Shown: positions 2,185 to 45,359 of the stretch, in pieces
How the letters are laid out: the number at the start of each line of letters is the position of its first letter
Position numbering within the stretch: position 1 is the stretch's first letter
Source: a virus
Length of the DNA: 64,000 bases
Direction: 5' to 3' (one strand)
IMG/VR virus record: IMGVR_UViG_3300024336_000005
Location: 124,001-188,000 of that record
Program-made: the position numbers and the translations under genes
Notes under the pieces: model-generated
Database searches by the model: none
The model's input: only the letters and a program-made list of their open reading frames with translations
What the model was told of the DNA's origin: nothing

Positions 2185-2577
2185 ATGAAGCAGGGCGTAA
2201 GCATAGTTGTTCTCGGTTTGACCGAGGATTTTGAAACTAAGGTTCTTATCTGTGAGCGTAAGGATGGCAGCGGATACTGTCTGCCAGGAGGGAAGATTGA
2301 TCCCGGCGAGAGGGGCGAACAGGCTGCAATGAGGGAGCTCTTTGAGGAGACTGGAATCTACCTTAGCGCTGCCAACACACGGCATCTGTACTCAGGCGTA
2401 GAGATCCCCGAGTGGATCACTACTACCTTTTATCTCCCGTACAAGCTGAAGATAGCTGATACTATCCTTTCTCCTGGTGAGGGAGAGCCACCCTGCAAGT
2501 GGGGCACTTGGGAAGAGCTCTTTGGTCCCCCCTTTGGCGACTACAACCGTAAGGTATTTGAGGTGATGCGGACGTGA
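2185..2577 (+). CDS. Nudix hydrolase
   Basis: The Nudix box spans residues about 31-54: GGKIDPGE, then RELFEETGI, matching GX5EX7REUXEEXGU with the RE and EE metal ligands present. At 130 aa it is a single-domain Nudix protein. Substrate cannot be read from sequence; (d)NTP clean-up is likely next to an IMPDH-like gene and with the dNTP genes downstream. It ends in a GTGA overlap with the next gene. Confidence 0.92.
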   Translation: MKQGVSIVVLGLTEDFETKVLICERKDGSGYCLPGGKIDPGERGEQAAMRELFEETGIYLSAANTRHLYSGVEIPEWITTTFYLPYKLKIADTILSPGEGEPPCKWGTWEELFGPPFGDYNRKVFEVMRT

Positions 2578-3617
2578 GTAACTCTAAGTCTTTTGATGAC
2601 TATCTTATGTCTCCTCGGTATTCTGATATTGAATCAAGGAGTGAGGTTTCTCTGGAGACTTCTTTAGGGCCATATACCTTTAGTCTCCCTATTATCTCTT
2701 CTCCTATGGATACTATCACTAATGCTGAGATGGCAGCGGCGATGGCTGAGGCCGGAGGCTTAGGGATTGTTCACAGAGGACAAGAGGCTGCAGTACAGGC
2801 CCACGAAGTTGGCCTGGGAGTGGTGATAGCGCGCGAAAAAGGTGTAAAAGATCCTATCATTGGTGCAGCCATTGGCGTAAAGGTTGAAGATGTTGATAGA
2901 GCTGAAAGGCTTGTAGATGCAGGGGCTAAGATCCTTTGCATTGATGTCTGTCATGGACACCACATCAATGTGAAGCGTCAGATCAAAAGGCTGCAACATC
3001 TTAATACCACCATCATTGCTGGAAACATTGCCACCAGAAATGGTGCAATGTTTCTTGCAGACCAAGGGGTGGCTGGCATTAGAGTTGGCATTGGCAATGG
3101 TTCCATTTGTTCCACAAGACTGAACACTGGACACGGCGTTCCACAAGCAACAGCATTGATGCATGCCGCGTGGGGAGTGTCTGGAGTTATGGATAGTACC
3201 AGCCCACCAGAAGCCAGGCCTGCTCTCATCTCAGATGGTGGTTGTCGTAACGGAGGAGACATCGTTAAGGCCCTTGCGCTCGGTGCTGATATGGTGATGT
3301 TGGGTTCGATGCTTTCGGGTACATATGAAACCCCAGGCAACTGTGATGACGACGGTTACAAAGTGTACCGTGGCATGGCCTCTGAAGGAGCCCAGGCCGA
3401 CTGGGGCGGTGGAGTTAAGTCAGTGGAAGGGGTCACTGCTAAGGTGCGCTCCAAGGGGGCTGTAGGCCCCTTGTTGGACGCCCTTGCTGAGAATCTTCGA
3501 GCAGGGCTGTCTTACTCAGGGGCTAGAACCATTAAGGATCTTCAAGCATGTGCTGACCGAATCATTGTATCTCAATCATCACTGAGGGAAAGCGATACGC
3601 ATATTCGCTTCCAGTAA
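2574..3617 (+). CDS. IMP dehydrogenase / GMP reductase family protein
   Basis: TIM-barrel purine oxidoreductase of 347 aa. Visible motifs: SSPMDTIT near residue 40, the catalytic-cysteine loop GIGNGSICST, the phosphate-binding SDGGCRNGGDIVKALALGAD, and GSMLSGTYETPG followed by YRGMASEGAQ. The CBS domain pair of full-length IMPDH is absent, giving a GMP-reductase-like length; which reaction it runs is undecided. GTG start, overlapping the Nudix stop, suggests translational coupling. Likely role: guanine nucleotide balance during infection. Confidence 0.9.
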   Translation: MSNSKSFDDYLMSPRYSDIESRSEVSLETSLGPYTFSLPIISSPMDTITNAEMAAAMAEAGGLGIVHRGQEAAVQAHEVGLGVVIAREKGVKDPIIGAAIGVKVEDVDRAERLVDAGAKILCIDVCHGHHINVKRQIKRLQHLNTTIIAGNIATRNGAMFLADQGVAGIRVGIGNGSICSTRLNTGHGVPQATALMHAAWGVSGVMDSTSPPEARPALISDGGCRNGGDIVKALALGADMVMLGSMLSGTYETPGNCDDDGYKVYRGMASEGAQADWGGGVKSVEGVTAKVRSKGAVGPLLDALAENLRAGLSYSGARTIKDLQACADRIIVSQSSLRESDTHIRFQ

Positions 3618-5749: not shown

Positions 5750-6859
5750 ATGTCGCACACAACTCTTTTTCATAAGGGCAAGGCCAACAAGCTGTACTCA
5801 TGGACCATTTGGACTGAAGGTGACGAAATTGTTACCGAACATGGGACTGCAGAGGGCAAGAAGCAGGTCTCACGTAAGAAGGCCACGCCAAAGAACGTAG
5901 GCAGATCCAATGAGACCACAGCAGAGGAGCAGGCCGTGCTTGAAGCACAGGCCATGTGGACCTTCAAGAAGGAACGCAAGTACTCAGAGTCTCCTCATGA
6001 GGCAGAGCAAACACTCTTCCTCCCCATGTTGGCACAGGACTTTGAGAAGAAGAAGTCTAAGGTTAGCTACCCCGTAGATGTTCAGCCTAAGCTGGATGGA
6101 GTTCGCGCTCTTGCTACTTGGGAGGGAGAAGAGGTTAAGCTCTACTCTCGTTCAGGTAAGGAGTGGAACATTCCTCATCTAGCAAGACAGCTTGAGGCAG
6201 TCTTGCCTAAGGATAGAATTGTTGACGGTGAGATTTACATCCATGGTGTGAGCTTCCAGGCAGTGACTCGACTGGTTAAAAAGCATAGACCAGGAGAGAG
6301 TGAGAAGCTTAATTACTTCATCTACGATATGGTGATGAAGGGGGCAGAGAACACAGAGATTGGCTGGCTTCCTCGTAAGCATCAGCTGGCTGAGTTCTTT
6401 GGGTCCTTTGATGAGAGCTTGGCTCCCAACCTCATTCATGTTCAGAGTAATGATGCCCCAAGTGAAGAGGAAGTCTATTATCTACAGCAGAAGCTAGTAG
6501 AAGAAGGCTTTGAAGGTGCCATCGTAAGGGTCCTCAATGGATTCCCTTACATTTATGGCTACCGCTCAGCTGGTCTGCTCAAAGTAAAGACCTTCTCGGA
6601 TGAAGAGTTTAGAGTGGTTGGGCATACCATGGGAGTAGGCAAGTTCGCTAATACCCCTACGTGGGAGTGTATCACCAATGAGGGGAGGCCTTTCCGGTGC
6701 CTGTCCAAGGGAACGAAGGCCGAACGAGAGGCCATGGGAGCCAATGCTGAGTCCTACTATGGGCAGATGCTAAAGGTTCGCTTCTTTGAGAAGTCAGAAG
6801 ATAATATCCCAAGGTTTCCAATCGGTATAGGCTTTAGAGACCCCAGGGATATGTCATGA
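5750..6859 (+). CDS. ATP-dependent DNA ligase with WGR-like N-terminus
   Basis: 369 aa. Residues about 1-75 look like a WGR-type module (KLYSWTIWTEGDEIVTEHGT). The nucleotidyltransferase core follows: motif I KLDGVRA near residue 115 with the adenylated Lys, DGEIY (motif III), EGAIVR (motif IV) and LLKVKTF (motif V), then an OB fold. It seals nicks in duplex DNA in replication and repair. Preceded by AAGGATAAATA. Its stop overlaps a small membrane-protein gene. Confidence 0.92.
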   Translation: MSHTTLFHKGKANKLYSWTIWTEGDEIVTEHGTAEGKKQVSRKKATPKNVGRSNETTAEEQAVLEAQAMWTFKKERKYSESPHEAEQTLFLPMLAQDFEKKKSKVSYPVDVQPKLDGVRALATWEGEEVKLYSRSGKEWNIPHLARQLEAVLPKDRIVDGEIYIHGVSFQAVTRLVKKHRPGESEKLNYFIYDMVMKGAENTEIGWLPRKHQLAEFFGSFDESLAPNLIHVQSNDAPSEEEVYYLQQKLVEEGFEGAIVRVLNGFPYIYGYRSAGLLKVKTFSDEEFRVVGHTMGVGKFANTPTWECITNEGRPFRCLSKGTKAEREAMGANAESYYGQMLKVRFFEKSEDNIPRFPIGIGFRDPRDMS

Positions 6860-7011
6860 AGTACATCTTCTTGACTGTAGTCCAGGTCATATTGGCCTTG
6901 GCCATCTGCGAAACATTGGTACAATTTGCATGGGTTATGGTAATGGGATCAATAGGTTGGCACACATACGACCTAATAAGCACTAGAATAGTAGGGGTTA
7001 AGGATGAGTAG
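6856..7011 (+). CDS. Small membrane protein, 51 aa
   Basis: ATG overlaps the ligase stop (ATGA). It starts MKYIFLTVVQVILALAIC and continues hydrophobic to about residue 33, giving one long or two short transmembrane segments, with a charged C-terminus (RIVGVKDE). Function unknown. Confidence 0.65.
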   Translation: MKYIFLTVVQVILALAICETLVQFAWVMVMGSIGWHTYDLISTRIVGVKDE

Positions 7012-14356: not shown

Positions 14357-15503
14357 TTTCGAGGGAATTGATCCACTCCTAAAGCTTTCTTCAAAGCTTG
14401 GAGTTGCACTTGATAGCGCACAGGATTTGCATCCTGTCTTCCGAATCGCAGGGATTGTTTCTCAGACGGGAACGTTGCTGGACTATGCCGTCAAGCTTGT
14501 TCCCGATCGGCCAGAGACTAAGACGACTGTGGTGCAGAACTACCGAAACGTACATACCTTTACGGCACAACAGCCGACCATAGTTATGGTAGGTTGTGGC
14601 GGTACGGGCAGTCACTTGCTTCCAAATATTCTACAGTATGCAATCACCAAGGCGGCTCAACAGACTGTTACCCCTCCCTGTGTCATCATTATCGATGGAG
14701 ACGGAGTGGAAGAGAAGAACCTAATTCGACAGAGGTTCACTCAAGCGGACCTTGGAGAGAACAAGGCTATTGCCTTGTCTCGTCGCTACAGTGCAGTGTT
14801 TGCTACAAAGATTAAGGCTGTAGACACTTACCTTGAGGACTCAAAGCAGCTGATTGGCCTTATCAAGGACGAAGCCCCAGCGGTTGGTCCTATCATTTTA
14901 GTAGGGGCAGTGGATAATCACAGAGCTCGTGCTATTTTGTGGGACACCTTCTTGAGCGAGACCCAGAGGGAGATCTGGTGGGTTGACGCAGGAAATGAGT
15001 CCTGGCATGGTCAGGTCATTTCTGGGTGCAGGAATGTACAGACAAAGGGAGATTCCCATTGGGCTGCCGCAGGCATCGGAGATGATATTGCTTCTGTTGA
15101 TCTGCCTTGCTTCTTCGATGAGTATCCAAAGGAGTTCATGAAGATTGGCGGTACGCCAACGACTCCACAGAATACTTGTGCTGCAGTGGCTGAGGAGGAC
15201 CCTCAGACCATTCATGCAAACTCATTGTCAGCCCAATGTGCTTCAAACATTATCACTCAGATTCTTGAGGGTGAAGTTAGAGTAATGGGATTGAACTTTG
15301 ATGCAAAGACTGGTCAGGTTAAAGCCAAGATTCTTACACGAGTGAACATCGCCACCGCATACGTTGACATGAAAAACTCAAGAACTTCTCTTCGGGGATT
15401 CCTTGGGGACCTATGCTCGTGGAAGGGGAAGTCTGAACCGGCGACTCTCTTCCCGGGACTATACAAAAAAGCAAAGGTAGAGGATCTCTATACGGCTATT
15501 TAA
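14337..15503 (+). CDS. ThiF/E1-family activating enzyme (PRTRC-type)
   Basis: 388 aa. Nucleotide-binding VGCGGTGSH at about residues 85-93, IIDGDGVEEKNLIRQ (the Asp and Arg that engage ATP), and Cys281 in PQNTCAAVAEEDPQ, where PRTRC ThiF proteins carry their candidate catalytic Cys. E1 enzymes adenylate the C-terminus of a ubiquitin-like protein and take it as a thioester. About 80 N-terminal residues precede the Rossmann fold. Its stop overlaps the reverse transcriptase ATG (TAATG), a strong sign of co-expression. Confidence 0.88.
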   Translation: MMAGILNFEGIDPLLKLSSKLGVALDSAQDLHPVFRIAGIVSQTGTLLDYAVKLVPDRPETKTTVVQNYRNVHTFTAQQPTIVMVGCGGTGSHLLPNILQYAITKAAQQTVTPPCVIIIDGDGVEEKNLIRQRFTQADLGENKAIALSRRYSAVFATKIKAVDTYLEDSKQLIGLIKDEAPAVGPIILVGAVDNHRARAILWDTFLSETQREIWWVDAGNESWHGQVISGCRNVQTKGDSHWAAAGIGDDIASVDLPCFFDEYPKEFMKIGGTPTTPQNTCAAVAEEDPQTIHANSLSAQCASNIITQILEGEVRVMGLNFDAKTGQVKAKILTRVNIATAYVDMKNSRTSLRGFLGDLCSWKGKSEPATLFPGLYKKAKVEDLYTAI

Positions 15504-16357
15504 TGTACAGACAGTATAAAATAAAGAAGCGCAAAGGAGGGTTCAGAACTATTACTGAACCCTCTGACTCTTTAAGTGAGATGCTGTCTTACCTTAAGGT
15601 GCACTTAGACGCCCTGCCCATGAGTGAACATGCTCATGGCTTTATTGTGAATAAGAGTATCATTACAAATGCCCTGCCGCACCGGAACAAAAGATATGTC
15701 CTTAACCTAGACGTTAAGAACTTCTTTCCCAGTGTTAGAAGGCCTCTGATGATGGAAAAGTTAGCTCCCTTCTTTAATGAAGGGAAGCTTCCTCTAGACA
15801 TCAGAGATTGGATTCATGAGTTGTGCTTCTTTGAAGGAGCGCTACCTCAGGGCTCACCAACCTCTCCTGTTCTTTCTAATCTCTATATAGCAGAGATAGA
15901 CGAAGAGCTAGTCAGAGTAGCAGGGGAGATGGACTGTACTTATACTAGGTACGCTGATGATATGACCTTTTCAGGAGGAGACGTCCTGAAAAGTGAGAGG
16001 GATAAGGTGGCGCGCGAGGTCGATCTTCTCTTGCAGAGGATTGAACTAAAGCTCCACCCACGTAAGGTAAAGCTTATGCCATACTATCAGAGACAGATTG
16101 TCACTGGCATTGTGGTAAATAATGAAAAATTGACGCTACCTAGATGGTACAAAGAGGAACTCTTCCTTGCTACAAAGGGAGAGGATCCGTCTACCTTCGA
16201 TGAACAATTCAGGGGTGTTCTTGAGTATGTTCGTTCGGTAGATTCACAATTCTATAAAAAAATGTGCAACCATATGATTGCACCAAAGGAGAATGAAGAT
16301 GGCAACACTTCCAGAGTGGATCACAGAGGTCCGATTTTATGCAACGACTCCCAGTAG
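15503..16357 (+). CDS. Retron-type reverse transcriptase
   Basis: 284 aa. Motif A LDVKNFFPSV, motif B LPQGSPTSPVLSNL, catalytic YADD in YTRYADDMTF, and a later RQIVTGIVVN. NALPH before motif A and VTG after motif C are the retron-RT hallmarks NAxxH and VTG. QG in motif B argues against a diversity-generating RT. There is no maturase or endonuclease domain, so not a group II intron. It is translationally coupled to the E1 gene; the usual msr-msd RNA is not visible immediately upstream, which is coding. Confidence 0.88.
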   Translation: MYRQYKIKKRKGGFRTITEPSDSLSEMLSYLKVHLDALPMSEHAHGFIVNKSIITNALPHRNKRYVLNLDVKNFFPSVRRPLMMEKLAPFFNEGKLPLDIRDWIHELCFFEGALPQGSPTSPVLSNLYIAEIDEELVRVAGEMDCTYTRYADDMTFSGGDVLKSERDKVAREVDLLLQRIELKLHPRKVKLMPYYQRQIVTGIVVNNEKLTLPRWYKEELFLATKGEDPSTFDEQFRGVLEYVRSVDSQFYKKMCNHMIAPKENEDGNTSRVDHRGPILCNDSQ

Positions 16358-39091: not shown

Positions 39092-40084
39092 ATGAAAGAC
39101 TTTGTACATCTTCACCTGCACACTAAGTTCAGCCTACAAGATGGTACCACTGAGCCTGAAGGGCTCATGAAAAAGTGTGCCGATCATGGGATGAAGTCCG
39201 TTGGAGTGACAGATCATGGGAATATGGCAGGGATGTGGGATTGTGCTAAGTACGCTAAGCAGTATGGCATTAATCTAATCCCTGGCAATGAATTCTATGT
39301 TGTTCCTGATGCACAAAAGAGCAGGGGGAATGATTGGCGGAAGGGGAAGTCCTCTCATCTTGGACTTCTTGCTTATAGTCAGACCGGTTGGGATAATCTG
39401 TTGAGGCTTACTGCGTTATCGAATCTTGAGGGATTCTATAACGAACCTCGGATAGACTATAGGATGCTCAGAGAGAACTCCGAAGGATTGTGGTGTATGT
39501 CTGGCTGCCTCGGCGGCTTCATAAATACAGCCATTAAGAATAATCAATCCCCAAGGTTTGCGGTAGATATGCTGCATAGTATCTTTGGAGATAGGCTATC
39601 TCTTGAGATACAGGTGAACCCAATACCTGACCAGCAGATTCTTAATGATGAAGTGATAGCAATTCATCATGCTACAAAGATTCCCCTCGTTGCTACCGTT
39701 GATGCTCACTACTTAGATAAGACTGATAGCCACAACCAGGACATCCTGTTTGCAATGCAGTTAGGGAAATCCCTAGAGGACCCAGAGAGGCTGAAGATGC
39801 CTCCAGAAGAGCACTCTGTTGAAACCCCAGAGGAAGCCATCAAGAGGTTCACAGATAAGTATGGGAACCTTGGATTGGAGGCTTGTCGGAGGACGGTAGA
39901 GATTGGAGACAACTCTCACTCAGAGATTACTTACCAAAGTAAGAGCTATAAAATTCCCACCCTTGATGTTGCAGCACAGCCAGACTTCCAAGAGTTTCTT
40001 AAATGGAAGACAGGCTGTGAATGTCACACCTCAGACAAAGGGGAGTGCTTAGTACATGGAAAAGCCTGTGGGCATAACCACTAG
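39092..40084 (+). CDS. dnaE: Stand-alone PHP domain of DNA polymerase III alpha
   Basis: 330 aa. FVHLHLHTKFSLQDG, VGVTDHGNMAG, GNEFYVV and VATVDAHYLD are the PHP metal motifs of DnaE. In ordinary DnaE this domain is fused to the palm; here it stops and ends in a Cys/His-rich tail (CECHTSDKGECLVHGKACGH), a likely zinc site that could dock it to the rest. Palm and fingers start 0.7 kb downstream. The PHP domain stabilises or proofreads for family C polymerases. Confidence 0.9.
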   Translation: MKDFVHLHLHTKFSLQDGTTEPEGLMKKCADHGMKSVGVTDHGNMAGMWDCAKYAKQYGINLIPGNEFYVVPDAQKSRGNDWRKGKSSHLGLLAYSQTGWDNLLRLTALSNLEGFYNEPRIDYRMLRENSEGLWCMSGCLGGFINTAIKNNQSPRFAVDMLHSIFGDRLSLEIQVNPIPDQQILNDEVIAIHHATKIPLVATVDAHYLDKTDSHNQDILFAMQLGKSLEDPERLKMPPEEHSVETPEEAIKRFTDKYGNLGLEACRRTVEIGDNSHSEITYQSKSYKIPTLDVAAQPDFQEFLKWKTGCECHTSDKGECLVHGKACGHNH

Positions 40085-40107
40085 AAATAAAACTATAGGA
40101 GATTAGC

Positions 40108-40401
40108 ATGTTAGAAGTTACCCCCGCACCTGGATTCGCCATGGTGACACTTGAGAAGGACGCACAGACAAAGTCTGGACTTTTTGTTGCAGGCACACAG
40201 GACGGCCTAAAGAGAGGTCGCGTAGAAGGCCTTGGCCCTGAGTTTGTCACAGACCATGGTGTTTCAATCGCCTTCCCAGCAGATGTTGGAGATGTCGTTC
40301 TATTTGACAAGGGAACTGAATTTTCAATCCCGGGGCAAGGAAGCTACTACTTCGTGTGGCGGAACAACACTGTTGGCAGGATCGTCGAGTCAGGAGAGTG
40401 A
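40108..40401 (+). CDS. groES: GroES/Cpn10-like co-chaperonin
   Basis: 97 aa, AGGAGA upstream. PAPGFAMVTLEKD, TKSGLFV, GDVVLFDKGTEFSI and YYFVWRNNTVGRIVE follow the Cpn10 barrel. Phage GroES analogues replace the host cap on GroEL for folding capsid or other phage proteins. It sits between two pieces of dnaE. Confidence 0.82.
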   Translation: MLEVTPAPGFAMVTLEKDAQTKSGLFVAGTQDGLKRGRVEGLGPEFVTDHGVSIAFPADVGDVVLFDKGTEFSIPGQGSYYFVWRNNTVGRIVESGE

Positions 40402-40727
40402 CAGATTCACTTGGGAATGAATACAGAGTGGGAGATATACTCTTGTACGTCGCCGGGGGAGATCAGGCTCGGCCACAGATTGCCATGTTTGTTGAAGCTT
40501 ATATGAATGCAGATGGAGATCCTAAAAATAGGTTCCTTTTTGCGAACCGTAGAACGTGGAATCGAGATCAAAATAACGTGTCTGTCAGAACTATTGGACG
40601 GCCCTGGAGGGCCCGCTTGAAGCGGCTCTCTGATGTCCTTCCTCATGACAAGGCCCTCGAGGCAAGAGATTTCTTTGAGTATGCCCTGGAGCTAAAGGGA
40701 TACGAGCTTGGGCTGCCTCTTCTTTGA
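40398..40727 (+). CDS. Hypothetical protein, 109 aa
   Basis: GTG start overlapping the groES stop (GTGA). MTDSLGNEYRVGDILLYVAG and a basic middle (RRTWNRDQN, then WRARLKRLSD). Not recognised. Confidence 0.6.
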   Translation: MTDSLGNEYRVGDILLYVAGGDQARPQIAMFVEAYMNADGDPKNRFLFANRRTWNRDQNNVSVRTIGRPWRARLKRLSDVLPHDKALEARDFFEYALELKGYELGLPLL

Positions 40728-40774
40728 GGTATGATGTCAGAATGGAGAGGTCTCAGAGAGAAGGAGAGGTTCAA

Positions 40775-41600
40775 ATGAAGAGTGATGATCAGAACTCCTA
40801 CCTTTTATTTTGGGCCCAGAAGGGGCTTAAGGCAAGAGGGCTCTGGGATGACCAGGTCTATAAGGATAGGGTAGATTACGAGTGGAAAGTTATCTCTCGT
40901 ATGGGGTTTGCAGGATACTATCTTGTAGTCGCTGACTACGTGGCTTGGGCCCGTAGTCAAAGAATCCCAGTGGGGCCTGGACGTGGTTCAGGTGCTGGCT
41001 CTTTGATTGCCTATGCTGTAGGCATAACGGATGTGGATCCCATTAAGTGGGGCCTAATGTTTGAGAGGTTCTTGAACCCAGGTAGAGTCTCCATGCCTGA
41101 CTTTGACATTGACTTTGGAAAGAGAGATCGACTCAAGGTTTTTGACTACCTGTCAGAGAAATACGGACATCAGAACGTTTGTCAGATTGGTACTATTGGC
41201 ACCATGAAGGCAAAGCTTGCGGTCAAAGATGTGGGGAGAACCCTTGGACTTGATCCCTCTGAGCTGGAAAGATTCTCTAGCTTAATTCCCGACGAAGAAA
41301 GAGGAGGACAGGGCGATCATGCTATCACCTTGAGCCTCCTCTTGGATCCTCCCAGGGAGCTTGTTAAGGCTCACGGAGAGGCTCTTGCAAAGTTCAGAAC
41401 TGCTTATGAATTCGACAAAGACTTTCATAGAGTTGTCAACCTTGCTGTAGAGCTGGAAGGAATCCCAAAGAGTTACGGGGTGCACGCAGCTGGAGTTGTC
41501 ATCGGAATTGATTCTCTATGGGGAGATATTCCTCTTAGGAAATCAAATGATGGAAGGCCTGTTAGTCAGTGGACTGACAAGCAGGTCGAAAAGATGGGGT
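40775..41600 (+). CDS. dnaE: Family C DNA polymerase (DnaE) N-extein, exon 1
   Basis: ATG 40775 has AAGGAGAGG upstream and gives MKSDDQNSYLLFW. GPGRGSGAGSLIAYAVGITD and MPDFDIDFGKRDR (two catalytic Asp) are the DnaE palm; GVHAAGVVI and QWTDKQVEKMG follow. The frame closes shortly after codon GGG at 41597-41599; the expected VKFDFLGLRTLD resumes at 42431, so an intron is removed. Exon 1 ends with U at 41600. Confidence 0.92.
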
Positions 41601-41742
41601 TAGCTTATTAGCCCCTGTATGGAGCAATCCGTACAGCAAACAAGGTGAACCCCAAAGCAAAGGGGGTGTGCTGCATCTGCAGCGCTAACAGGGGAACCTA
41701 AGTGAGCGAGTCTCATAAGGCAATCCTGTGCTAAGCTTTTGA

Positions 41743-41771
41743 TTGATTAGGTATTGCAAAATTGATATAAT
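41743..41771 (+). promoter_or_regulatory. Possible promoter for the intron endonuclease
   Basis: TTGATT, 17 nt, TATAAT, ending 27 nt before the ATG of the intron HNH gene, itself preceded by an AGGAG. Phage group I introns often express their endonuclease from a separate promoter, but AT-rich intron sequence can mimic one. Confidence 0.4.
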
Positions 41772-41798
41772 AGGAGCTCAACAAACAGGAGCTGCGTT

Positions 41799-42335
41799 AT
41801 GCAAAAGTTAGAAGGATTTGAGAAGGTAGAATCTGAAGGAATTTTGGGAGAGTATTATATTCATCCAGACGGAAGGATCTACAGAGATTACGGACATAGA
41901 ATAAAATTTCTTTCCGAGAGGCCAAATGCTTATGGCTATAGTCGAATAAGCTTGCTTCATCAGGATGGACGTAGAGTGGATCGAATGATGCATCGATTAT
42001 TGATGTTAACATTTGTCCCAAATCCAGATAATAAGCCACAAGTCAATCATAAAGACGGAGATAAAAGCAACAATCAGCTTTCCAATTTGGAATGGGTTAC
42101 AGATCGAGAAAATAAGCTTCATTCACATAGAGTGCTTGGAGCCAAATCTAGTGACAAAAGTTGTTTCTTATTTTATTTTGGGGGCTTTGTTCAAAGGTTT
42201 CCAAACATCCAAGCTGCTTGTAACTATGCAGCTAAAAAATATGGGTGCTCCTCAAAGTCTTTATGTAAATATTACACATCTAATGGATGTGCAATTATTA
42301 CAGAAGAAAGTGCAACGACTATCCTAACGGAGTAG
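41799..42335 (+). CDS. Intron-encoded HNH homing endonuclease
   Basis: 178 aa. Residues about 15-60 are NUMOD4-like (GEYYIHPDGRIYRDYGHRIK), then the HNH core (MMHRLLMLTFVPNPDNKPQV, NHKDGDKSNNQLSNLEWVT) and a NUMOD1-like C-terminus (VQRFPNIQAACNYAAKKYG). The last codons lie over the intron's P7 strand. It would cut intronless dnaE alleles to spread the intron. Confidence 0.88.
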   Translation: MQKLEGFEKVESEGILGEYYIHPDGRIYRDYGHRIKFLSERPNAYGYSRISLLHQDGRRVDRMMHRLLMLTFVPNPDNKPQVNHKDGDKSNNQLSNLEWVTDRENKLHSHRVLGAKSSDKSCFLFYFGGFVQRFPNIQAACNYAAKKYGCSSKSLCKYYTSNGCAIITEESATTILTE

Positions 42336-42428
42336 GGGGGGTATTGCTCCTCTCGAAGCGCCTTGATCTCTGAATCAATACAGAGAATATGATATAGTCT
42401 GTGCCACTAGAAATAGTGGAATAACACG

Positions 42429-44149
42429 TTGTAAAGTTCGACTTTCTGGGACTCCGCACACTTGATGTAATTGAAGACGCCTGTCGTAGCATAGAGAAAA
42501 GAACTGGAGTGACTATTGATTGGGAACAGACTCCCGAGGATGATGGTCCTACATTCGATATGCTCAGCAGAGGAGACACCTTTGGTGTCTTCCAGCTGGA
42601 GGCATCTGGTATCTCTGGGTTTACCAAGGGATATAAGCCAAGGTCTATCGATGACATCTCAATCATCTCAGCTCTATACAGACCTGGTCCGCTGGATAAT
42701 GGGATGGTAGATGCCATTCTGTCTGTCCGCAAGGGGAAGAAGATTGAAGAGAGTCCTGTTGATGTCATTAAAGAAATCCTTAAGGATACGAATGGGGTTC
42801 TGACATATCAGGAACAAGTATTAGCAATATCAAGGGAGATGGCTGGGTTTACCCTGTCGGGTGCTGATCTATTGAGGCGCGCGATTGGCAAGAAGCTGCC
42901 CGAAGAGATGCAAGCGCAGGAGCAAAACTTTGTTGATGGCTCCGTAGAGAAGGGGTATCCAAAGCATCAAGCTTTGGAAGTATTTGAAATCATTAAGAAA
43001 TTCGCTGACTATTGTTTGTCATATGATACTAAGGTATTGACCGATAAGGGGCCTCTCTCAATTGGTCATATTGTAGAAAATCAGCTAGAGGTTTCTGTTT
43101 ATTCTATTGATGAGCATGGGCTTGTCTACTCTCAGCCGGTGGCTCAGTGGCATGACAGGGGCATAAGAGAAGTCTTTGAATACAAGCTTGAGGATGGCTC
43201 TGTCATCCGAGCGACCGAAGATCATAAGTTTATGACCGTCGATGGAGATATGCTTGCTATTGAAACAATCTTCCTGCAGAATAGGGATATGCTTGTCATT
43301 GAAACAGGCAAGATTCAAATAGGGGAGATTGAAATGAAGCCTTATAATAAACTAAATGACCTGGACAAACAACTTGTCCAACGACTGTACTATGAAGGAT
43401 TATCCTTTGAGGACATCTCAAAGGAAGCTGTGGTATCTCAACGTTCTGTTAGTCGTGTTTTGCAAGAGGCTAATATTAACACCAGAAGGAAAAACCGTTA
43501 TACCCTTAATGAAAGCTTCTTCTGTGGAGCATATGATCATTATGAATGTGCATATTTTTTAGGCCTACTGGCAGCAGATGGATGCGTTACTCATAAGGAT
43601 TACATCGCCCTCCAGCTTATTGATGAAGAACTTGTCTTATGGTTTCGCAAAGCGATCGAATACTCAGGAGAAGTTCGGCTTATCCTTGGCGAGGAGCGAA
43701 AGCCCCCTGGCCAAGATGCCTATAGGGTGAACTTTAGCTCTGCCATAATGTCAGAGGAACTTCGTTCATATGGAATCATTGCCGGAAGACATCTTCAAGC
43801 AATTCCGAAGTTAGAAGATTCAATTGTGCCTCATTTTATTCGAGGGTATTTTGATGGAGATGGATGTGTTTACTTAAGGCCAGAGGGTTCTGGTGGAGTT
43901 GTTCATATTGTAGCCTCCGAGGCGTTTTGCGAATCGCTTAAAGAATACTTTGGATTCGGAACAATTAGTTCACATCCCAGTGGTATGTATTATTGGAGGA
44001 TCTTTGCAAAAAAACATGTGAATGTTTTTTATGAAGCCCTATATGATTCTGATGGTTCAGAGACCCTGTGCCTTAATCGCAAAAAGCAACTAATGGAAGC
44101 CTTCCTACGGAGCTACAAGTATGAAAATTGTTGGAAAGCAAAGGATTGA
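42429..44149 (+). CDS. dnaE: DnaE exon 2: rest of N-extein plus N-terminal intein half with LAGLIDADG domain
   Basis: Codons from 42431 continue DnaE (VKFDFLGLRTLDVIEDA, FGVFQLEASGISG, ALYRPGPLDNGMVDAI) to FADY. At 43013 the intein begins: CLSYDTKVLT, RATEDHKFM (block B), then a helix-turn-helix and two LAGLIDADG motifs (FLGLLAADGCVTH and FIRGYFDGDGCVY). The frame stops at 44149 before splicing blocks F and G, which are in the next frame. N-extein 470 aa, N-intein 378 aa. Confidence 0.9.
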
Positions 44150-44225
44150 GGATCAATCAGTCTATGATATTGGAGTAGAAAAAGACCATAACTTTCTTCT
44201 TGCTGATGGACAGGTTGCTTCCAAT
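43013..44225 (+). mobile_element. DnaE intein, broken into two overlapping reading frames
   Basis: Inserted between FADY and CFNKSHS, the insertion point of naturally split cyanobacterial DnaE inteins, and closely resembling them (PVAQWHDRG, EDGSVIRATEDHKFMTVDGD; C-part VYDIGVEKDHNF, ending VASN before Cys+1). Unlike those it retains a LAGLIDADG endonuclease, in the N half. The halves overlap by 29 nt in different frames, so a functional polymerase needs protein trans-splicing (or a frameshift plus cis-splicing). Confidence 0.85.
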
Positions 44226-45359
44226 TGCTTTAACAAAAGCCATAGTGTGGCCTATTCAATGCTTTCATATAGAACAGCTTATCTTAAGTGTCACTATCCT
44301 TCTGACTTCTATGCTGCAGAGCTTACGAGCCACGAAGGGGAAGTCAAGAAGCTTCTCCCAGCAATGGCAGATGCTCGAGCACACCACATGAAGATCAAGA
44401 CTCCTGATATTAATCTTAGTGAGGAGTGCTTTACGGCGACCGCCAGACATGAAATAAGGTTTGGACTTGCTGGAATTAAGGGGCTTGGGACAAAGGCTCT
44501 TCAGTCTATTATGAATGAAAGAGCCAATGGGAGTTTTGAGTCTATCACTGGCTTATGCAAGAGGCTCTCCTCTTCTGAGATTAAGTCGAATAATCTCACA
44601 GCCTTAGCAAGGTCTGGTGCATTTTCCCAAATAGAAACTGGAATGAACACAGCAGAGCTTGCAGAGTATGCCGTTAACACAGCGATTGCTCTTCGTAGCT
44701 ATCATAAAGATGAGAAGAAAGGCCAGGTGTCTATCTTTTCTGTTATGACTGAAGCTCCAGAAAATGAGATTAATGTTCAGAGACCGTCAATTCATTTGGA
44801 TGATGGAGATGAACTGGAGCTAGAGAAGGAAGCCTTGGGCTTTTATATCTCAGGATCTCCTCTGGATAAGTACAATACTATTAAGGAAAGATCCCATATA
44901 GATGAAATTGAAAGCTTAGAAGTTGATGGCATTTGGGTATCAGTTCTTGCCAGGATAACAGAGCTTAAGATTAGAAATGGAAAGAGGGGAAGCTTTGCAA
45001 TACTACAGCTAGAAGATACTAGCGGCAGCATTGGAGCTAAGATTTGGTCTAACAATATGGCTGAAGCTCGTCCATACTTAGAAGAAGGTAAGAGTGTTGT
45101 TGTCAGAGGAAAGACAAACTCCTACAAAGGACTTGAAATTGTTGTGGATTCTATTGTAGACGCTGAATCAGAAGTGAAAAGACTTTTGAAGAGAGTGGTC
45201 ATTCATAGACTTGATTCCACGATTTTAAATACACTCTTGCAATTGCCTGCAGGAAATGTTCCTATAGATCTTGAGCTTTCAAATGGCCAGATCAAACAAC
45301 GACTTGGATTTTTTGAAATCCAACCCCACATGCTGAGGGAACTGAATGAGATGGACTGA
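44121..45359 (+). CDS. dnaE: C-terminal intein fragment plus DnaE C-extein
   Basis: Own ATG with GGAG at 8-nt spacing. Residues 1-35 are the C-intein (MKIVGKQRIEDQSVYDIGVE ... VASN), nearly the same length as the split cyanobacterial one. Cys36 is the +1 residue and CFNKSHSVAYSMLSYRTAYL restarts DnaE. Then come an HhH-type region (FGLAGIKGLGTKAL) and an OB fold (GIWVSVLARITELKIRNGKR). The 377-aa extein with the 470-aa N part makes an 847-aa polymerase; with the PHP protein the total equals ordinary DnaE length. Confidence 0.9.
   Translation: MKIVGKQRIEDQSVYDIGVEKDHNFLLADGQVASNCFNKSHSVAYSMLSYRTAYLKCHYPSDFYAAELTSHEGEVKKLLPAMADARAHHMKIKTPDINLSEECFTATARHEIRFGLAGIKGLGTKALQSIMNERANGSFESITGLCKRLSSSEIKSNNLTALARSGAFSQIETGMNTAELAEYAVNTAIALRSYHKDEKKGQVSIFSVMTEAPENEINVQRPSIHLDDGDELELEKEALGFYISGSPLDKYNTIKERSHIDEIESLEVDGIWVSVLARITELKIRNGKRGSFAILQLEDTSGSIGAKIWSNNMAEARPYLEEGKSVVVRGKTNSYKGLEIVVDSIVDAESEVKRLLKRVVIHRLDSTILNTLLQLPAGNVPIDLELSNGQIKQRLGFFEIQPHMLRELNEMD

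Follow-up and report, generated by a model that had tools for sequence, protein, structure and literature searches.

In a 64,000-nucleotide (nt) stretch of a phage genome (bases 124001-188000 of the 204,008-b virus record IMGVR_UViG_3300024336_000005; hereafter, the window), the dnaE gene carries an intein of the cyanobacterial split DnaE type, with a LAGLIDADG homing endonuclease (HEN) between its N-terminal half (IntN) and its C-terminal half (IntC). We consider it likely, from sequence comparison, that this locus represents the cyanobacterial DnaE split intein in a mobile, "fractured-gene" form, whose halves would splice in trans and which would probably home as one cassette.

The broken intein of the phage dnaE gene

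The intein spans positions 43013-44225 and is inserted at FADY|CFNKSHS. An open reading frame (ORF) at 42509-44149 (546 amino acids, aa) contains its first part; the DnaE frame is open in the 5' direction to about 42428, and C1 is encoded at 43013. IntN and the HEN together make up 378 aa and end at the stop codon at 44147-44149. Unlike in the cyanobacterial homologues described below, no stop codon separates IntN from the HEN. A second ORF (44121-45359) encodes an IntC of 35 aa followed by CFNKSHS. The two ORFs, whose frames are offset by +1, share 29 nt, and the ATG of the second is preceded at a distance of 8 nt by a GGAG (44109-44112) that lies inside the R-S codons of the HEN. The sequence of the junction is CGGAGCTACAAGTATGAAAATTGTT. 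Upon frame translation, no contiguous IntN-HEN-IntC frame was detected, unlike in a cis-splicing homing intein. Translation and model matches bear out what a sequence-only reading of this DNA had proposed for the insertion site, the length of each half and the start of the second half behind its own GGAG.

The combined IntN and IntC match Npu DnaE with an E value of 4e-47 (phmmer), and the phage IntN is 61% identical to that of Npu. NCBIfam model PRK09532 (cyanobacterial DnaE-N) is matched up to position 872 of 876, PRK07373 (cyanobacterial DnaE-C) is matched from position 2, and the intein_Nterm and intein_Cterm models both match. As these matches run over the whole length, chance similarity is excluded, and the assignment to the cyanobacterial split type holds. 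All splicing residues are present (C1, T-x-x-H, the DHNF block, N-1 and C+1), IntC begins at the canonical start of split-intein C halves, M-(V)KI, and nothing else in the whole virus record matches the intein N-terminal model. The earlier proposal that trans-splicing would be required for a joined polymerase chain is supported by this structure.

The endonuclease has the motifs GLLAADG and GYFDGDG with both acidic residues intact, and the residues AADG and GYFDGDG are invariant in the HEN alignment. Pfam LAGLIDADG_3 matches the middle part of the phage ORF, and the family is PHROG 4645. Hence, the intein does still carry its LAGLIDADG endonuclease, as first read. The phage HEN is fused in frame to IntN, yet it has a start codon of its own (ATG 43334) with a GGGGAG 6 nt upstream; this ATG aligns with the start codon of the cyanobacterial HENs, which are free-standing ORFs, and possibly acts as an internal start for a free endonuclease. 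A fold prediction for the HEN had a predicted local distance difference test score of 50 and was not used.

The features of the locus, all on the + strand, are as follows (window positions):
39092..40084, +: DnaE PHP domain as a separate ORF (PHP 3e-37; PRK06826 positions 3-300)
40724..41606, +: first exon of the DnaE polymerase core, 5' of the intron (DNA_pol3_alpha 3e-78)
41607..42427, +: group I intron, splice sites approximate (Rfam RF00028, E 8.8e-5 and 0.036, below the gathering score)
42428..43012, +: DnaE N-extein (finger domain) 3' of the intron, ending in IIKKFADY (frame translation; Pfam DNA_pol3_finger 2.8e-45)
43013..43333, +: IntN, with C1, block B T-x-x-H (ATEDH) and a short linker into the endonuclease (phmmer to Npu DnaE; TIGR01445 4e-18; PRK09532)
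43322..43336, +: Shine-Dalgarno-like site GGGGAG (43322-43327) and ATG 43334 (sequence; HEN alignment)
43334..44149, +: helix-turn-helix (HTH) and two-motif LAGLIDADG HEN, in frame with IntN (Pfam LAGLIDADG_3, Sigma70_r4-like HTH; PHROG 4645 endonuclease 1.7e-39)
44109..44149, +: out-of-frame overlap of the HEN end and the IntC start (sequence; homologous overlap in cyanobacteria)
44121..44225, +: IntC, 35 aa, MKIVGKQRIED...DHNF...VASN (Npu DnaE match; TIGR01443 1e-6; PRK07373)
44226..45356, +: DnaE C-extein, beginning with C+1 FNKSHS (HHH_6, OB fold; TIGR00594)

The phage dnaE gene is thus in pieces (PHP ORF, core exon, group I intron and intein). The intron contains an ORF for an HNH endonuclease (41799-42335; HNH_3 3e-10), and the dnaE frame picks up again after it at VKFDFLGL. 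One polymerase gene holds both an RNA splicing element and a protein splicing element. Between the PHP ORF and the polymerase core (39092-40727) lie a GroES/Cpn10-like ORF (40108-40401) and then an ORF without assigned function.

Cyanobacterial relatives and their kinship with the phage intein

A genome scan for the IntN motif yielded 326 relatives, and 80 loci were kept; a HEN homologue lies between IntN and IntC in 4 of the 80. Cyanobacterial HENs were counted in 5/386 genomes of a phylum sample, in 1/65 of one order and in 24/391 of another, and more than 20 cyanobacterial genomes have a homologous HEN between adjacent IntN-dnaE and IntC-dnaE genes. These HENs are 37-45% identical to that of the phage and occupy the position between IntN and IntC at every complete locus; one weak extra hit (locus L218) has no adjoining intein. 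The earlier statement that natural split DnaE inteins lack the endonuclease was, in view of the 24 carriers in one order, too broad: the absence of a HEN does not define the cyanobacterial split DnaE intein because more than 20 cyanobacterial genomes depart from it as well.

The cyanobacterial layout consists of three ORFs (IntN, HEN and IntC), while that of the phage consists of a fused IntN-HEN and IntC. In cyanobacteria, IntN has its own stop codon, located between -25 and +10 nt from the HEN start codon and mostly in a different frame. As in the phage, the IntC start overlaps with the 3' end of the HEN (Microcoleus-type loci: AGGAGTTACAAACATGGTTAAAATTATT). GGAG-(A/G)TG with the same +1 offset is found in more than 20 cyanobacterial loci, the overlap being conserved at the DNA level. 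Most loci with an Arg-to-Gly codon change retain the GGAG, as do loci L105 and L108, where the HEN frame stops earlier; L210, L211 and L213 have variants (GGAAG, GAGGG). Conservation of the GGAG despite a codon change or an earlier HEN end indicates that selection keeps the IntC start codon in use as a start, and that the break is old.

Among close cyanobacterial copies, the ratio of nonsynonymous to synonymous substitution rates (dN/dS) of the HEN is 0.09-0.21, an indication that the cyanobacterial enzyme works or worked recently. Decaying copies were also detected: one is interrupted by an IS630/IS66-type insertion (genome G633; in locus L249, transposase genes of this type break the HEN), another has a frameshift (G505) and two have stops (G686 and G621). 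In G592 (L250/L251), group II intron maturase sequence is found at the break, at contig ends.

When intein-bearing dnaE-C loci were examined, 27 out of 30 had no IntN within 1.5 kb; the other three had a HEN (two loci) or a Uma2 nuclease gene (one locus) between the halves. An ORF for a Uma2 (PF05685) nuclease replaces the LAGLIDADG gene between IntN and IntC in two cyanobacteria (L252:1256-1948 and L058, approximately 6280-6960). Additional inteins lie upstream, at another site, in the same dnaE-N genes of three cyanobacterial loci (L036, L074 and L089), one of them with LAGLIDADG-like motifs of its own.

In a HEN tree with 18 viral HENs for comparison, the phage HEN groups with the 11 cyanobacterial HENs tested in a single clade (99/99), and the phage copy falls outside the cyanobacterial copies. 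The IntN of the phage is 58-63% identical to those of HEN-bearing cyanobacterial copies, but identity drops to 32-44% in the exteins; among cyanobacteria, the corresponding values are 71-92% for IntN and mostly 58-99% for the N-extein. The phage DnaE is equally distant from cyanobacterial DnaE and from Salmonella DnaE. High identity of IntN together with low identity of the exteins suggests that the intein has moved between lineages. Flanking residues also differ, as intein-bearing genes have FA(D/E/Q)Y|C and the sampled intein-free genes have FA(G/S)Y|(G/S/A); this difference could reflect co-conversion, with flanking DNA moved along with the intein. The IntN tree is poorly resolved: HEN-bearing and HEN-less inteins are intermixed, and gain or loss of the HEN is not polarised.

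Age of the break, working model and rival explanations

The sequence-only reading had regarded the intein as an intermediate that had just become split. However, the frame break, the GGAG and the start codon are common to the phage and to more than 20 cyanobacterial genomes, in spite of the distance between their HENs, and all belong to one clade. Hence, the split predates the divergence between the phage copy and those of cyanobacteria: both descend from a form with the HEN/IntC break, and the IntN/HEN boundary shifted later. A fresh split in the phage is rejected since the cyanobacterial relatives have the same out-of-frame junction. The word "intermediate" remains reasonable in a deeper sense: it is plausible that the phage and cyanobacterial layouts are stages between a contiguous homing intein and scattered, HEN-less halves. 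The series would run from the contiguous homing intein to the HEN/IntC break (common to all, and the state of the phage), then to the IntN/HEN break (the cyanobacterial state), decay of the HEN and finally separation of the halves, as in the usual DnaE split intein. The direction of this evolution is inferred.

From homology, the conserved layout and the purifying selection on cyanobacterial HENs, we infer a working model that involves re-initiation, splicing, cleavage and homing. The first translation unit would be the DnaE core with IntN fused to the HTH-LAGLIDADG endonuclease, and the endonuclease is probably also made alone from ATG 43334. The second unit, IntC-DnaE-C, would start at ATG 44121 within the 3' end of the HEN, probably by coupled re-initiation with the aid of the GGAG in the HEN codons. 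IntN and IntC would then associate and trans-splice FADY to CFNKSHS, thus giving a joined polymerase core, with the PHP domain staying separate. The HEN probably cuts intein-free dnaE at the intein site, so that IntN-HEN-IntC would be copied as one cassette. A broader view, which we advance tentatively and with a little more doubt than belief, is that split DnaE inteins were mobile as a unit and are still so in the phage: the fractured IntN-HEN/IntC cassette would home between phage and cyanobacterial dnaE genes, the phage would keep the first step only (the HEN/IntC break), and the HEN-free Npu and Ssp types would be remnants left after HEN decay and scattering.

Several observations weigh against a mobile, conserved cassette. 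A GGAG precedes 42 of the 883 internal ATGs of the window by chance; the evidence is therefore its conservation, not its presence. Purifying selection was measured on cyanobacterial HENs, the phage copy being a singleton. The extein tree does not reject a phage DnaE sister to cyanobacterial DnaE (approximately unbiased test, p 0.13), and the argument for horizontal transfer is for that reason the contrast in identity between IntN and exteins. Lastly, no HEN remnant was detected beside scattered HEN-less halves in the loci examined.

The origin of the HEN admits a second explanation, which we take seriously while stopping somewhat short of calling it probable. The HEN may be a later invader, that is, a free-standing phage or intron-type enzyme taken up between the halves of a DnaE intein that had been split before. 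The HTH-LAGLIDADG family PHROG 4645 is common in phages as free-standing or intron ORFs; in Alicyclobacillus phage MMB025, a related enzyme is encoded within an insert that interrupts dnaE at another site; in other cyanobacteria, the place between the halves is taken by the Uma2-type nucleases; and the mixture of HEN-bearing and HEN-less inteins in the IntN tree would also fit capture. In contrast, the existence of a single HEN clade tied to the DnaE split intein speaks against capture, and the HEN sits at the usual HEN site, its in-frame fusion to IntN in the phage resembling a contiguous homing intein. The MMB025 insert (L189 4378-5595) was also considered as a contiguous relative and rejected: it interrupts dnaE 41 codons 5' of the intein site, and no Rfam intron match was reported in it.

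Another possibility is that the phage HEN is a dead passenger and that only splicing matters. The decay of several cyanobacterial copies (G633, G592, G505, G686 and G621) is in line with this view, which we nevertheless deem unlikely: the phage HEN has its full length, retains the acidic residue of each LAGLIDADG motif and has an internal start behind a strong Shine-Dalgarno site, and close cyanobacterial copies are under purifying selection.

A programmed frameshift by which both ORFs would yield a single contiguous intein is very improbable. The +1 frame is open across the 29-nt overlap, but no classic slippery codon precedes the stop (AAG GAT TGA) and a start codon with a conserved Shine-Dalgarno site is present. 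Furthermore, of the cyanobacterial relatives checked, a single one has IntN and the HEN in frame, and a stop codon lies between them there; two recoding events would therefore be needed. Lacking a motif and facing separate ORFs in cyanobacteria, this candidate was rejected.

Least credible of all is that a contiguous cis-splicing homing intein is interrupted by an indel from sequencing or assembly or by a recent mutation: contiguous full-length inteins are commoner than split ones, and a one-base shift at 44120 would join the HEN "...LRSYK" to the IntC "MKIVG...", but IntC starts at the canonical split-intein start, and an indel error at 44100-44160 is unlikely because the same frame offset, with its GGAG-(A/G)TG, recurs in cyanobacteria and because the locus is 100% identical in another IMG/VR contig of this virus (IMGVR_UViG_3300024257_000003; 143,154 b, 5 mismatches over 143 kb), although the two contigs may not be independent samples. 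Assembly error was rejected on the identity of that contig.

The phage and its place among known systems

Terminase, portal and major head proteins are encoded, which identifies the virus as a large tailed phage. The second contig overlaps the record at both ends, and a circular map of about 203.9 kb can thus be drawn. A search for a publication on the environment of its metagenome (3300024257) found none. The comparison with related phages that the sequence-only reading had proposed returned no close relative, with or without intein, in the phage collection (DNA search) or in IMG/VR (motif scans); the phage is a singleton. Other genes of the phage include a retron-type reverse transcriptase (window 15503-16357; best NCBIfam match retron St85 reverse transcriptase, below cut-off), with no direct repeats of at least 40 b nearby, and a gene for a Ro60/TROVE (Rsr-like) RNA-binding protein (G000:C1:102773-104413; L018:2773-4413). 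An adenylosuccinate synthetase-like protein (weak PurZ match; G000:C1:95653-96708; L017:15653-16708) and an IMPDH/GMP reductase-like protein (window 2574-3617) possibly act in purine or 2-aminoadenine metabolism.

The passage from a homing intein to an essential, HEN-free split intein with distant halves has so far been argued without intermediates; a 2012 review invokes just "a series of intermediate steps" (PMC3403396). Candidate intermediates can now be tested: they show adjacent halves, a HEN under selection and its decay (by stops, insertion sequence elements or a group II intron), as well as an overlapping start codon that is conserved. A further suggestion from these loci is that split inteins are able to pass between phages and bacteria. 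The loci supply new natural relatives of the Npu and Ssp tools, with a matching endonuclease. As certain filamentous cyanobacteria share the phage layout, it may represent the ancestral state of the split inteins that biotechnology employs.

The split DnaE inteins described by Wu (1998) and Caspi (2003) are reportedly HEN-free and encoded by two dnaE genes lying apart. The phage intein resembles the Ssp and Npu inteins in its FA(D/E)Y|CFNKSHS site, in the sequence and break point of IntN and IntC, in the IntC start and in the splicing residues. It differs in having neighbouring halves with a LAGLIDADG HEN in between, and in that its exteins share only 32-44% identity with cyanobacterial DnaE. 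Dassa et al. are said to have described, in 2009, fractured genes that carry split inteins of the gp41-1 type, and the AceL NrdHF split intein has a GIY-YIG HEN on a phage-like contig (PMC7891396). Shared with these systems are a split intein in adjacent half-genes, a HEN at the break, a phage context and a replication or nucleotide gene, while the phage HEN is of the HTH-LAGLIDADG type, resides in dnaE, is continuous in frame with IntN and runs past the IntC start. Hence, fractured genes with split inteins and HENs were already known; for a LAGLIDADG HEN in a split DnaE intein, no report was found in the literature searched, whose coverage is incomplete, so that an earlier mention is possible. 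The DnaE intein of Desulfonema ishimotonii, contiguous and 415 aa long, is reported to be related to cyanobacterial and KSB3 inteins (PMC6390638); its length is close to that of the phage IntN, HEN and IntC together (378 + 35 = 413 aa), but it is not split. As in contiguous LAGLIDADG homing inteins, the HEN of the phage lies between blocks B and F, but the chain is broken between the HEN and IntC.
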